Shown here: one piece after another, positions 16,204-21,266 of the stretch
Numbering within the stretch: the first letter of the stretch is position 1
Layout of the letters: each line of letters begins with the position of its first letter
Source of the DNA: a virus
IMG/VR virus record: IMGVR_UViG_3300029787_000395
Location: 1-21,266 of that record
Direction: 5' to 3' (one strand)
Length of the DNA stretch: 21,266 nucleotides
Notes under the pieces: generated by a model
What the model was told of the DNA's origin: nothing
Databases searched by the model: none
The model's input: only the letters and a program-made list of their open reading frames with translations
Made by a program: the position numbers and the translations under genes

Positions 16204-18096
16204 TTATGTTATTGCATTAATGCTATAATTATTTCTTGCTTGTGCTTCATTGATATCATCTATTCTTGTTACAATTTGTATACCTGATATTGCATCTGCT
16301 ACAGCACTTGCTATTTCTTGTGCCGTTGGTCCGCCTCCTCCAGCAACATTTGTTGTTGCTTTGTCTAAACTGCCTTGGCTTGTTGATGCCAATATATTGA
16401 ATCTATCATTTGGATCAAATAATATAGCATCATTGAGTTGAACTAGTGAGTCTTTGTTGTTATTTGTGGAAGTGGATGTTTCTGCTCCTACATTTGAGGT
16501 AACAGTTACAGGGCCGTTCACTACTAAATTTCCTGGTCCATTAATTGATGCTTGTATACTTGTAACTGCGTTTACTCCTGTAAGTTTATCGATAAAGCTT
16601 ACTAATTTATTAACTGCAGTACCTATTCCAGGAATAACGGCTGCTAAGTCGTTTATAGGTTTTCTCAATGTTACAAAATTTTGTGCTTGTAGAAATACTT
16701 CTCCGGCTTGTTGAGCAATTCCATCAGCTGACATAATATATGCATCTGCGGATTCTTTTATGCTTTCTAATAAGTTTGTTCGAGCTTCGGTAATTTGGGT
16801 TATTTGATCAGCATCTACTAAGTTATTTAGAATTTGTTCAGTTAGTAATGCCTCACTTTGTTCTGCTCGTAATTGTTCTGTTGATCTTATGTCTTGATCA
16901 GAGCCCATTTGACCTAAATTTTGTCCAGCTAATTGTCCTAGTGATGTAGGATCAGATTCTGCAATACTTACAAGTCCGTCTGGTAATTGAATCTGGCCCA
17001 TTAATCTGTTTTGTTGAACCATTTTCATTAAGTTACCTTCCGATATACCTGTAAGTTGTGCCATTTCTTGTCTTGCAAAAACATTTGTTTCTAGCGTTTC
17101 ACCAGTTTCTTCAATTATTTTTTGCATAGCTTCTGTTGCTGCAGCTGCATCTCCACGTACTGTTGCTTCACGTAATGCTGCTGTTAAACTATTTCCTTGG
17201 GCATCTACTAATCGTTGGCCTGATAATAATTGAAATTCAAGTTCACTGTTTATTGATGATTCAATATCAAGTAATTTTGTTCCTACTTTTGCAATAGTAT
17301 TAAAATCAGTTCCTAACATACGAGCTTGAAGTACTGCTTTTTCTAATGATCCAGGAACACGACTAAACTGCATTTGTATATCTGCGCCAAGACTTCCTAT
17401 GTCTTCAAATATTGTTTTTGCTGCGCCAGCTAAGCCGGTTTGTTTTTCTAATGCTAATGCAACTTGCATCATGTTTGTTACATTATCTTCAGTCGACTCT
17501 CCAAATGAAGCTCCATATAATTGAATAGCATTAGCTGCTTCAGGGGCTATACCTAATTGTTCTGTTAATGATCGTTGAACACGAAATAATTGTTCTGCAA
17601 GACCACGATTTGCTAGTAAATTTTTTGTTTGTAATGGAGCAATTTGTTTGAATTGTTGTACATATGCTCTTGCTTGACCTCCACCAATTTTTAATTCTTG
17701 AGCTATCTCATCTAATGTTTGACCAAACCCAGCTGATACTTTTGTAGAAACTCCCAATGTTTTGTTTAACGATAAATTTCTTCGTTCAAGAAATGTTAAA
17801 TTCCGTACAGATGTCTGTATTGCTTGTGAAAAGTCTTGTGCTAAGGCAATTCGTTTTTCAGTAACTAGATTTTGTTTTAAAGTTTCAGTTGTTAATGCTT
17901 CGTATAACGTGTTATATCTATCTAATATATCTCCACCGGAATCAAACTTATCATTCAAGCCTTGTTGATTAGTATTTCTTGCGTCTGCAGCTTCAGCTGC
18001 TTTTATTTCTGCAGGTGTTAGTGTGCCGTCAGCATTAGGCTGGCCATTTCTTGGTAACGTTTTTAAAATTTTAATATAGTTGTATAGAATATTCAT
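16204..18096 (-). CDS. probable tape measure protein (gp29-like), 630 residues
   Basis: The protein is long, with an extended helical N-terminal half. Residues 60-230 are rich in Leu, Gln, Ala, Glu and Lys, with stretches such as ALTTETLKQNLVTEKRIALA and QTLDEIAQELKIGGGQARAY. Helices and low-complexity Ala/Thr regions follow, then a Gly/Asn/Val-rich C-terminus (GNLVVNGPVTVTSN, NVAGGGGPTAQEIASAVAD). The length (T4 gp29 is 590) and the place directly after the gp26/gp51 chaperone pair and before baseplate genes are those of the tape measure gene. It should run inside the tail tube and set its length. No hydrophobic membrane segment or peptidase motif is seen. The ATG at 18096 has no clear Shine-Dalgarno, but the candidate promoter element C lies 8 bases upstream, so the message leader would be very short. 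Confidence 0.7.
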   Translation of the reverse strand: MNILYNYIKILKTLPRNGQPNADGTLTPAEIKAAEAADARNTNQQGLNDKFDSGGDILDRYNTLYEALTTETLKQNLVTEKRIALAQDFSQAIQTSVRNLTFLERRNLSLNKTLGVSTKVSAGFGQTLDEIAQELKIGGGQARAYVQQFKQIAPLQTKNLLANRGLAEQLFRVQRSLTEQLGIAPEAANAIQLYGASFGESTEDNVTNMMQVALALEKQTGLAGAAKTIFEDIGSLGADIQMQFSRVPGSLEKAVLQARMLGTDFNTIAKVGTKLLDIESSINSELEFQLLSGQRLVDAQGNSLTAALREATVRGDAAAATEAMQKIIEETGETLETNVFARQEMAQLTGISEGNLMKMVQQNRLMGQIQLPDGLVSIAESDPTSLGQLAGQNLGQMGSDQDIRSTEQLRAEQSEALLTEQILNNLVDADQITQITEARTNLLESIKESADAYIMSADGIAQQAGEVFLQAQNFVTLRKPINDLAAVIPGIGTAVNKLVSFIDKLTGVNAVTSIQASINGPGNLVVNGPVTVTSNVGAETSTSTNNNKDSLVQLNDAILFDPNDRFNILASTSQGSLDKATTNVAGGGGPTAQEIASAVADAISGIQIVTRIDDINEAQARNNYSINAIT

Positions 18097-18104
18097 GTAG
18101 ATAT

Positions 18105-18119
18105 CTTTATTATAAATAT
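18105..18119 (-). promoter_or_regulatory. candidate promoter element upstream of the tape-measure gene (copy C)
   Basis: The coding-strand sequence ATATTTATAATAAAG is identical to copy B before the gp26-like gene. It begins at the stop of the gp51-like ORF and ends 8 bases before the tape-measure ATG. TATAAT within it resembles a -10 box. Confidence 0.58.
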
Positions 18120-18410
18120 TTACATAGGAGGTTTTCCGATTTTATCTTTTGGAGATTGTTTGGTTCTTTGTTTTTCTATAGCTTTTTTCTTTTCATTAAA
18201 AAGTTTATTTATTTTTTTAATGTAAAACGTTCTTAGAAATATTGGCATATGATATATGTCTTGCCAAGTCCATCTGCCTTCACCTACCCAAAGTAAATCA
18301 AATAATTGTTCGTGAAATTTAACACGGTCAGATTGTTTAAAACCAAAAAAGGTTTGCTCCAAGTTGAAACATGGCTTTGAAGGTGCCTCCATCTTCACCT
18401 TCGAATTCAT
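18120..18410 (-). CDS. gp51-like tail chaperone extension, probably expressed by frameshift from the gp26-like gene
   Basis: The open frame from ATG 18410 encodes 96 residues. The first 22 or so lie inside the upstream gene and look random. The likely functional part begins near the T6 run and reads DRVKFHEQLFDLLWVGEGRW, then WQDIYHMPIFLRTFYIKKIN, with a basic tail. A phage chaperone motif with MPI-x-L-R-x-F-Y is what I expect in gp51-type proteins, which help tail assembly. T4 gene 51 also directly follows gene 26. No ribosome site precedes ATG 18410; an internal ATG at 18392 has a GAAGG nearby and is an alternative start. The better explanation is a frameshift at the T6 run (18345-18350) giving a 322-323 residue fusion, as in lambda G/GT. 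Confidence 0.68.
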   Translation of the reverse strand: MNSKVKMEAPSKPCFNLEQTFFGFKQSDRVKFHEQLFDLLWVGEGRWTWQDIYHMPIFLRTFYIKKINKLFNEKKKAIEKQRTKQSPKDKIGKPPM

Positions 18411-19089
18411 AATTATAATCTAATCTTGGAGAATTTGAATTATAATATTCTCGAAATGTTTTAGAGTCTTTTGCTAGAAAATTAAATTTAATAAAATTTT
18501 CAATGTCTTGTTGTTTTCTTGAATCATTGATCTGTGTTATTGTGGATGATAAAAATTTTGATACTGATTCTGTATCTGCATTTGTATATGCAAATTTCAA
18601 TGTGTATTCATCGTTTATTTTATAAGTAAATTCGCCATTATCATCAGATTCCAATTCAAATGGTATAGACTTTATTTTAGATAAGTCTACTGTTCTGTTT
18701 AATAAAGTTTTAGTTTCAGGATCTGTTACTGTAACTTCATATTCTTTACCATAACTTACAATTCTTGCGTATATAATTAATTTGTCTTTGTCAACATCTG
18801 CAATATCTTTTATATTGATATCTGTAATAATTAATGATTCCAACAATTTATCAAAAACTACCCCTTCGTTCATATATGTTTGATTGGTTAAAATATCTTC
18901 ATCATATGCAGTCATGTATCGCATTTCAACAGTTCCAGAACTTAAAGGATGTGATTTTGGATATATTTTTCCTTGGGATGTAAGTTCAACTATTTCTGTT
19001 GGTAAAGTGTTTCTTTTTGTTTTTTCGTATTTATCTGTCGCTAAATTTATCAGATTTTCATTTGTATAACGATCTGTATGTTTTGCCAT
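18337..19089 (-). CDS. gp26-like tail assembly chaperone / baseplate protein, 250 residues
   Basis: The stretch from about residue 30 (PTEIVELTSQGKIYPKSHPL) through SSGTVEMRYMTAYDEDILTN is the conserved start of the T4 gp26 (T4_baseplate) family. The central part (TKTLLNRTVDLSKIKSIPFE and ESDDNGEFTYKINDEYTLKF) is strand-rich. Family members precede the tape measure gene and are thought to act as tail chaperones. Two features stand out at the 3' end. The last residues LFWF overlap the gp51-like frame by 74 bases, and a T6 run with an upstream GGAG sits just before the UAA, consistent with a programmed frameshift. The ATG at 19089 has AAAGGA upstream. Candidate promoter B sits 16 bases before it, after a terminator hairpin that follows the tube gene, so this gene opens a new transcription unit. 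Confidence 0.8.
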   Translation of the reverse strand: MAKHTDRYTNENLINLATDKYEKTKRNTLPTEIVELTSQGKIYPKSHPLSSGTVEMRYMTAYDEDILTNQTYMNEGVVFDKLLESLIITDINIKDIADVDKDKLIIYARIVSYGKEYEVTVTDPETKTLLNRTVDLSKIKSIPFELESDDNGEFTYKINDEYTLKFAYTNADTESVSKFLSSTITQINDSRKQQDIENFIKFNFLAKDSKTFREYYNSNSPRLDYNYEFEGEDGGTFKAMFQLGANLFWF

Positions 19090-19105: not shown

Positions 19106-19120
19106 CTTTATTATAAATAT
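19106..19120 (-). promoter_or_regulatory. candidate promoter element upstream of the gp26-like gene (copy B)
   Basis: The coding-strand sequence ATATTTATAATAAAG lies 16 bases before the ATG and about 11 bases past the end of the tube terminator tail. It is identical to copy C. The terminator-then-element order supports a transcription start here. Confidence 0.62.
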
Positions 19121-19130
19121 TGTAAACAGT

Positions 19131-19172: not shown

Positions 19173-19682
19173 TTAAAATTCTAATACTGCGTAATCATAT
19201 TTCAATGTTAATTCAATTTGAACTGACTCTTCTGTGGTCCAATCCATTGTTCCAAAATTTGAATCTGCGATAAAGGCACCTTTTAACAACCACTCTTCAA
19301 TTATTTCTCCGGTTGGTGATAATGAATTAAATCTAATATCTTTTTTGTATTGTGTGCTATATCCATCTCTACCTGTTAATGATTCATGATGTAATCTTAC
19401 CCATTCCATTACTGACTGAGCTCCTGATGGTACTATAGGGTCATACAATGTAATTGATAAATCTTGCCATCTTGTTTTACCTTTTAACTTTCTTTCAACA
19501 TTGATATGATCTAACAATACTTCTCCGTTGGTTAAAGAAGGTCTTCCGGCAGCTTTTATAATATATGTAGGAATATCACTGATATACATGATGAATCGAT
19601 TGGTATACTTTGGTTCCCAATCAAACGCTCTATCAAATAATTCGTTTTGATCTATTCCTGGTAATTCTTGTTCTAATGCCAT
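19173..19682 (-). CDS. tail tube protein (T4 gp19-like)
   Basis: This 169-residue protein (T4 gp19 is 163) begins with an acidic N-terminus (ELPGIDQNELFDRAFDWEPK). It shows RFIMYISDIPTYIIKAAGRP and a C-terminal beta-rich half with TRWQDLSITLYDPIVPSGAQ, then GEIIEEWLLKGAFIADSNFG and LTLKYDYAVLEF. A tube fold of a curved sheet with a G-x-F...W...Y-D segment near the end is typical of contractile-tail tube proteins. Position directly after the sheath gene is diagnostic. It should stack as hexamers to form the inner channel through which DNA passes. The candidate promoter A is 14 bases upstream and AGGA six bases before the start. A terminator follows its stop. Confidence 0.88.
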   Translation of the reverse strand: MALEQELPGIDQNELFDRAFDWEPKYTNRFIMYISDIPTYIIKAAGRPSLTNGEVLLDHINVERKLKGKTRWQDLSITLYDPIVPSGAQSVMEWVRLHHESLTGRDGYSTQYKKDIRFNSLSPTGEIIEEWLLKGAFIADSNFGTMDWTTEESVQIELTLKYDYAVLEF

Positions 19683-19726: not shown

Positions 19727-21266
19727 TTATTCTGGGAATGAAGCACCAGTTGGTTGAATATTAAAGTCTAATACTATAAATTCTGCGGTTCTGGTTGGTT
19801 GCAAAAATATTTGTCCGTATAATATATTTTGATCAATCAAATCTGGAGTGTTATTTGAGGCATCCATTACCACTCTAAATGCTGATAATCCTTGTTGTGT
19901 TCTTACACTTTCTAAATATGGATTTGCAATTGCTAAAAATTTATTTCTTGTTTCCGTTGTATTTTGTTCAAATACTAAAAACTTGGTAGCCGATGCAATA
20001 AATTTCTTAACAGTTATTAATAATCTTCTAACATTAACTCTATCTAATGCAGATGGTCTTGCTTGAAGAGTCTTTTGACCCCATATACAAATTCCGGTAT
20101 TTGGGAAGTTTGCTATAGGATTAACTCTATCTTCATATAATTCATCTCTATCTGCTTGAGTTAATTTTTCATATGTGTTAATTACAGATGTTAAACTACC
20201 CCTATTTAATCCTGCAGGTGCATACCATGGTGCAGCTACTGCATCATTAAATGACAATGCTCCAGGAACAACAACTGATGGTGGTACAAATATTGGTTTA
20301 TTTTTACCTGCGTCTACTATTCTTACCCATGGGAAATATGTTGCTGTATAATTTGAATCAATTGAAGTAACTTGATTGGTTACGGTTGATATTGAATCTG
20401 TTAATGCTCCAGCATCCATTATATAGAATGTGTCTTGTCTATCTTCTGCTAATTGTCTTGCTTCTGCAGTTACATTGGAATGTAATCTATCAATTATCCC
20501 AGGTATTACTAACATGTTAATATCAAAGAAATCTGTGTTGCTTAATGCTGCAAACGCTTTTCTATATGCTTTTGTACCACTAGTATTAGCAGCGCTGCAA
20601 TCGAATCCCAAAGTATTAGTTGATTTTATATTAGTACCTTTTAATTTTGGTAGATTTGGTCTTGTTCCATCAAATGCTCCTTGAAATGGTATCATAAACT
20701 TTCTAGTTCCAATTGCAACATTTGTTCCAAATGTTCCTCCTGTCAATGCTGTTTGCAATGATCCAGAATATGGTGATGCTATACTTGGAAAATTTGATCC
20801 GCTAGACTGTAATATGTCTCCTAAATAAAAATCTGTATTAGCTCCTGTATTTGATCCTGATGTTGGTAATGGAGCTAAATAATTCAAGTTATTTAAATTT
20901 GTAAAATCAAATCCATGATAATTTTTTGAATTATATGTTCCGCCTACTACTTGTGAAGTTGCATATGATGTAGCTGTTAAATTTAAATTACCAGCTGAAC
21001 CAGATGCATCAGGTATTGGTGAATTTAAAGCTTTAAATCCAAATGGAACTAAAGAAGGATCTATTGCTCCTTCGTTAACATTTGTTGTTACTTCAACTCT
21101 TATGTAATTTGATAAGTTAGGATACTCTCCGTTATCAAATATTTTTCCATTAGAATCAATAGTTCGATATTGATCACCAATTCTTCTAACAATATAATTA
21201 GGTGAATCTGGATCTAAATTAATATTACTATATGTTTCTAATATTTCTGGAGTTGGATCTGTGTCA
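19727..21266 (-). CDS. tail sheath protein (T4 gp18-like), N-terminus beyond the window
   Basis: The frame is open from the right edge of the window to the TAA at 19727, 513 codons, so the gene is cut at its 5' end. Near the upstream end it reads NYIVRRIGDQYRTIDSNGKI and continues GEYPNLSNYIRVEV, a segment characteristic of phage tail sheaths. The C-terminal part has NVRRLLITVKKFIASATKFL and FQPTRTAEFIVLDF-like strands (residues IFLQPTRTAEFIVLDFNIQP), the conserved sheath C-terminal domain. T4 gp18 is 659 residues, so perhaps 130-150 are missing here. In the virion, sheath subunits surround the tube and contract to drive it into the cell. The TTG at 20887 is not the start, because the frame upstream is open and reads as sheath sequence. 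Confidence 0.92.
   Translation of the reverse strand, partial: DTDPTPEILETYSNINLDPDSPNYIVRRIGDQYRTIDSNGKIFDNGEYPNLSNYIRVEVTTNVNEGAIDPSLVPFGFKALNSPIPDASGSAGNLNLTATSYATSQVVGGTYNSKNYHGFDFTNLNNLNYLAPLPTSGSNTGANTDFYLGDILQSSGSNFPSIASPYSGSLQTALTGGTFGTNVAIGTRKFMIPFQGAFDGTRPNLPKLKGTNIKSTNTLGFDCSAANTSGTKAYRKAFAALSNTDFFDINMLVIPGIIDRLHSNVTAEARQLAEDRQDTFYIMDAGALTDSISTVTNQVTSIDSNYTATYFPWVRIVDAGKNKPIFVPPSVVVPGALSFNDAVAAPWYAPAGLNRGSLTSVINTYEKLTQADRDELYEDRVNPIANFPNTGICIWGQKTLQARPSALDRVNVRRLLITVKKFIASATKFLVFEQNTTETRNKFLAIANPYLESVRTQQGLSAFRVVMDASNNTPDLIDQNILYGQIFLQPTRTAEFIVLDFNIQPTGASFPE

Follow-up and report, generated by a model that had tools for sequence, protein, structure and literature searches.

The tail-chaperone frameshift of lambda, gpG/gpGT, is reportedly the subject of a 2004 study by Xu, Hendrix and Duda. 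Like the locus described here, the lambda pair consists of overlapping frames directly before the tape-measure gene that give a short chaperone and a C-terminally extended form, and little sequence similarity between such pairs across phage families is usual. The lambda genes are a tail-chaperone frameshift pair, and T4 has been named as an exception to the G/GT rule (PMC5009743). The T4 proteins gp26 and gp51 appear in a list of hub assembly chaperones; assembly needs gp51, which is absent from the particle (PMC3004832). CUU-U is the shift site of the RF2 gene, with UUU-U as a minority variant, and SD stimulators are known at 3 nt (+1 shifts) or 9-14 nt (-1 shifts) (PMC5009743).

The window, the whole stretch of 21,266 nucleotides analysed here (IMG/VR virus record IMGVR_UViG_3300029787_000395, positions 1-21,266), is a single metagenomic record, and its source is a T4-type contractile-tailed phage of bacteria. 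Read along the minus strand, the genes run from sheath and tube through gene 1 and the second frame to a tape-measure-like gene (Table 1). The pair thus lies between the major tail protein and the tape measure, and the order of sheath, tube, G, GT and tape measure is the lambda-type place. The tape-measure-like gene matched the annotated tape measure protein of Flavobacterium phage immuto (BLASTP E 3e-13) and its counterpart in Microcystis phage Mel-JY01 (E 3e-9); gene order and these matches bore out the claim of the first-pass annotation that the pair adjoins a tape-measure gene.

Gene 1 was placed in the PF12322 family (T4_baseplate) with an E of 4.2e-10 and 40.1 bits, the curated cut-off being 24.5, and also matched phrog_150 (baseplate hub, E 2e-14). 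Gene 1 and the T domain were folded separately, each as a protein of its own. The AlphaFold model of gene 1 (pLDDT 88) matched T4-like gp26/baseplate hub proteins in BFVD, and the T domain was modelled as helical (pLDDT 81); a PDB search by sequence and by fold gave no significant match. Compared directly by profile with individual T4 proteins, gene 1 and ORF2 gave weak matches. Among 47 sequences the invariant columns of the T domain included F1, G2, R8, H12, W20, P35 and R39. The conserved domain starts with the F-G codons at the slip site, in agreement with the earlier statement that the gp51-like domain begins just past it.

Table 1. Features of the gene pair and its surroundings, in window coordinates.
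Feature	Position	Strand	Basis or remark
Tail sheath gene (upstream context)	19727..20887	-	PF04984 E 1.5e-12
Tail tube gene (upstream context)	19173..19682	-	phrog_4542 tail tube E 1.9e-21
Gene 1, gp26-family tail chaperone / baseplate-hub protein (predicted short product)	18337..19089	-	250 aa ORF
Second ORF (ORF2)	18120..18410	-	96 aa, +1 frame relative to gene 1
ATG of ORF2, without SD, not conserved	18408..18410	-	sequence and alignment
Second in-frame ATG of ORF2, possible internal start, not conserved	18392..18394	-	AAGGTGA upstream
Hairpin of clade A, GAAGGTG...CACCTTC, with GGAGG in the loop	18379..18402	-	pairing and covariation
SD-like GGAGG, 41-45 nt upstream of the T of TGG	18386..18390	-	conserved peak, z about -11 against synonymous shuffles
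Slip site CTT TTT TGG (T of TGG = 18345)	18343..18351	-	conservation and re-pairing
Zero-frame stop TAA, one codon past TGG	18337..18339	-	sequence
T domain predicted to be read after the shift (GFKQSD... to stop)	18120..18344	-	conserved domain starting at the slip
Tape-measure-like gene, directly downstream of the pair	16204..18096	-	BLASTP

Gene 1 and ORF2 overlap by 74 bases, with the second frame in +1, and the coding strand at the overlap reads GGA GCA AAC CTT TTT TGG TTT TAA, the T run at the slip being T6 (18345-18350). The first-pass description of overlap, frame and slip sequence was accurate on each of these points. Relatives were collected by scanning viral contigs with gene 1 and its homologues from Mel-JY01 and immuto, and fell into three clades, A (window-like), B and C. 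At all 318 loci where both profiles were detected the second frame was +1 and overlapped gene 1, an arrangement far beyond chance. Seven loci lacked a match for the second part; one was L085, and the short ones examined (e.g. L014) end at a contig edge. When the junctions were aligned as the first-pass annotation had proposed, slip run and frame relation proved conserved, whereas ORF2 varied in its N-terminal codons and in its possible starts. The slip codons among relatives were YTT TTT TGG, TTT CTT TGG and rarer forms, many relatives carrying T7. Synonymous constraint peaked at these codons in all three clades, the codons being in effect frozen; synonymous identity at the codon before TGG was 1.00 in clades A and B and 0.90 in C. 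The wobble position was that of frame 0 ahead of the slip site and that of frame +1 past it. Upstream, substitutions fell at the zero-frame wobble position; this was clear in B and C, whereas A showed it farther out than -30 and was mixed nearer the slip. From +9 onward they fell at the +1 wobble position in all three groups.

On this comparative evidence a programmed +1 ribosomal frameshift very probably makes a fusion protein at the locus, and two products that share an N-terminus by way of a frameshift are predicted with strong comparative support. A frameshift, +1 or -2, had been put forward as a candidate from the window sequence, and overlap, frame, slip site, T domain and missing starts among the relatives now speak for it. 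Ordinary internal or coupled initiation, by which the second ORF would be a separate protein begun at ATG 18392 or 18410, was considered improbable. No SD precedes the ATG at 18410, as originally noted, but the second in-frame ATG, whose start base lies at -47 from the T of TGG, had been overlooked; the AAGGTGA just before it can pair with 16S rRNA. An ATG at -47 with an SD (AGGTGA) occurred in 39 of the 80 clade-A junctions and in none of B or C. Every clade-A junction also keeps at least one ATG, GTG or TTG in the second frame, so that access by the shift alone is not strict there and internal initiation in the window is rated unlikely, with a small probability left to it. A separate second gene was found in two distant relatives (L428 and L433), in which the T domain is an ORF with its own ATG just past the gene 1 stop; a separate second gene with a strong ribosome site of its own had been named as counting against a shift, but in both the overlap with gene 1 has been lost, and in L428 the slip site as well. 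Against initiation stands the lack of any common start position: in 87 of 202 distinct junctions the stretch of second frame that runs from the last stop to the slip site has no ATG, and in 35, all in B and C, it has no ATG, GTG or TTG. The +1-frame stop lies at most 9 nt from the slip site in 14 junctions, and 8 nt before it in several. Separate initiation would moreover leave unexplained both the frozen slip codons and a domain that begins exactly at the slip.

A -2 frameshift would reach the same frame with one residue more (GANLFFGFK). Phage Mu uses such a shift, and the T runs permit it at 200 of 213 distinct sites. It was nevertheless judged very improbable, since the other 13 (of the forms TTC TTT TGG, TTT CTA TGG and TTT CTA TTC) forbid -2 re-pairing at both codons and allow +1, and +1 re-pairing is allowed at one of the two codons in 213/213; the earlier choice between +1 and -2 is thereby narrowed to +1. 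Transcriptional slippage on the T run might be suggested by the T6 of the window and the T7 of many relatives. Sites such as CTTCTTTGG, TTCTTTTGG and TTTCTATGG, however, have T runs of only 3-4, which are too short for slippage, and this explanation has next to no probability. Neither has a sequencing error or gene decay, conceivable in so far as the window is one metagenomic record: frame and site are shared by the 318 loci and by the sequenced isolates Mel-JY01 and immuto, which refutes it.

For the +1 frameshift, we infer the following course, from the occurrence and rate of the shift and the events in the P site to the function of the products. Most ribosomes would end at the zero-frame stop and release the 250-aa gp26-family protein. 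In the remainder, TTT or CTT would be paired with a Phe or Leu tRNA in the P site while TGG is slow to fill the A site; the mRNA would slip by one base and the P-site tRNA re-pair on the overlapping +1 triplet. This fraction of ribosomes would read on in +1 and add about 74 residues, mostly helical, to give a fusion of 322 aa with the junction ...GANLF-GFKQ..., the lower of the two lengths (322-323) first predicted. By analogy with lambda gpG/gpGT, and with gp26 and gp51 of T4, the short and long products may serve, in a fixed ratio, as chaperones of the tape measure. The proposed site resembles that of RF2 (CUU UGA) in that a CTT T or TTT T slip is followed by a TG- codon. It differs in having a sense codon, TGG, in the A site and in the distance of the SD-like element, which is 35-45 nt as against 3 nt in RF2.

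The first-pass annotation had singled out a GGAG 5 nt before CTT as a possible stimulator. The motif is present in the window; it occurred exactly there in only 9/80 clade-A junctions and near the slip in 25/202, and is therefore not a conserved stimulator. No conserved stimulator was found at the classical 3-nt +1 spacing among the 202 junctions, and the site has no RF2-like SD; an SD about 3 nt upstream, as in RF2, is not required of all +1 sites. An SD-like stretch was conserved farther upstream, beginning at about -48 in clade A, -42 in B and -39 in C (comparison with synonymous shuffles gave z of about -7 to -13). In the interval -55..-29 an SD-like 5-mer was present in 187/202 junctions, compared with 5-49 in control windows of gene 1. 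At 35-45 nt upstream the element lies outside the known frameshift-stimulating spacings, and its part in the shift, if any, may be of another kind. In the clade-A hairpin 97.7% of cells were paired (slid controls 41-58%) and three pairs showed two-sided changes; the clade-A region -60..-30 folded 5.7 kcal/mol below synonymous shuffles. Between the SD-like element and the slip a modest folding excess was seen in all groups. At +3 to +90 downstream, clade A had no excess folding and clades B and C a weak one. Single folds of B and C allowed the SD-like element to pair with the pyrimidines of the slip; this pairing was set aside after the RNAalifold consensus of B came out empty. An Rfam search gave no match.

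A different form of the pair was found in distant relatives. At the position that matches the slip site, L085 and its three relatives L415-L417 have T TTT TTC, and their T domain lies in -1 relative to gene 1; for all four, a start at an ATG on or close to the stop of gene 1 is a possible alternative. The gp26/gp51 genes of cyanophages (S-PM2 and relatives, Kyanoviridae) resemble the +1 pair in that G and T are related (profile probability 89% and 86%) and in their order before a large gene. They differ in frame, in slip sequence, in an SD-like sequence close to the slip and in a strong downstream hairpin. The deposited S-PM2 sequence has two genes here, gp26 and, behind it in the -1 frame, a 'gp51' of 57 aa. 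T TTT TTC stood in frame just before the gp26 stop in 59/59 distinct cyanophage-type junctions (L334:16177-16195, L335-L414), with the SD-like sequence 8-9 nt upstream in 51/59, and downstream folding averaged -12.4 kcal/mol compared with -6.0 in composition-keeping shuffles. Judged by these features, the cyanophage pair carries a textbook -1 signal.

T4 gp26 and gp51 both matched PF12322, the family of gene 1, as well as phrog_150. Profile comparison makes them paralogues (99.4%), gp51 having the form of gp26 with about 50 extra C-terminal residues (T4 pair at L086:3803-5229). Unlike the overlapping frames of the window, genes 26 and 51 are separate and show no frameshift, being divergent in T4 and tandem in RB43 (L328:2501-3794), where the order is as after duplication. 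The T domain of the +1 groups matched the cyanophage T domain (profile 85.8%, E 5e-6), and this in turn matched the gp51 C-terminus, to which it is homologous (97.6%, E 5e-12); reversed controls were null, and the direct match between the +1 T domain and gp51 was weak (E 0.012). The label "gp51-like" given to the second frame would accordingly hold for the C-terminal domain of gp51, reached by way of cyanophage gp51, and not for the whole protein. This chain of profiles points to the same pair in three states, as a +1 shift, as a -1 shift and as two genes in T4; the T4 state may have arisen by duplication and loss of the shift.

Compared with lambda, the shift proposed here is +1 and not -1, and it would act on T4 gp26-family proteins in a contractile-tailed phage of the T4 type. 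T4-type phages would then gain a G/GT pair, T4 gp26 and gp51 would be predicted to be its split form, and two poorly understood assembly proteins would be given a concrete role. A +1 shift, a -1 shift and, by inference, a duplication become comparable within one gene pair, which could explain the listing of T4 as an exception to the lambda G/GT pattern. A wider proposal is advanced tentatively, its chances being somewhat short of even: the T4 superfamily was never an exception. Its ancestral gene would have made short and long gp26-type chaperones by frameshift, with different lineages switching the direction between -1 and +1; the two products would have become, in T4 itself, the separate paralogues gp26 (short) and gp51 (long). 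As part of the same proposal, the +1 sites may use a new kind of stimulator, in that the SD-like element, 35-45 nt away on the 5' side, would work by way of a fold in the intervening mRNA.

Current annotations overlook the pair, the second domain being called a separate gene in two isolates and in the cyanophage checked. The records of the two isolates (L083:3348-3458 and L082:3321-3557) begin the T domain at an internal start, and in immuto it is truncated; the predicted frameshift was thus missed. A literature search for gp26/gp51 together with frameshifting found no paper describing it; few subscription journals were covered, and an earlier description is possible.

Two sequences were considered as late promoters. 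The candidate TATAAATA was rejected, its frequency not being above chance. An exact 16-base repeat, AATATTTATAATAAAG, was found on the minus strand at 18105-18120 and 19106-19121, in the gaps before the tape-measure gene and gene 1. Weaker copies occur elsewhere (with as many as 3 mismatches allowed, 7 matches as against 3.4 expected), and the repeat is a possible late promoter.
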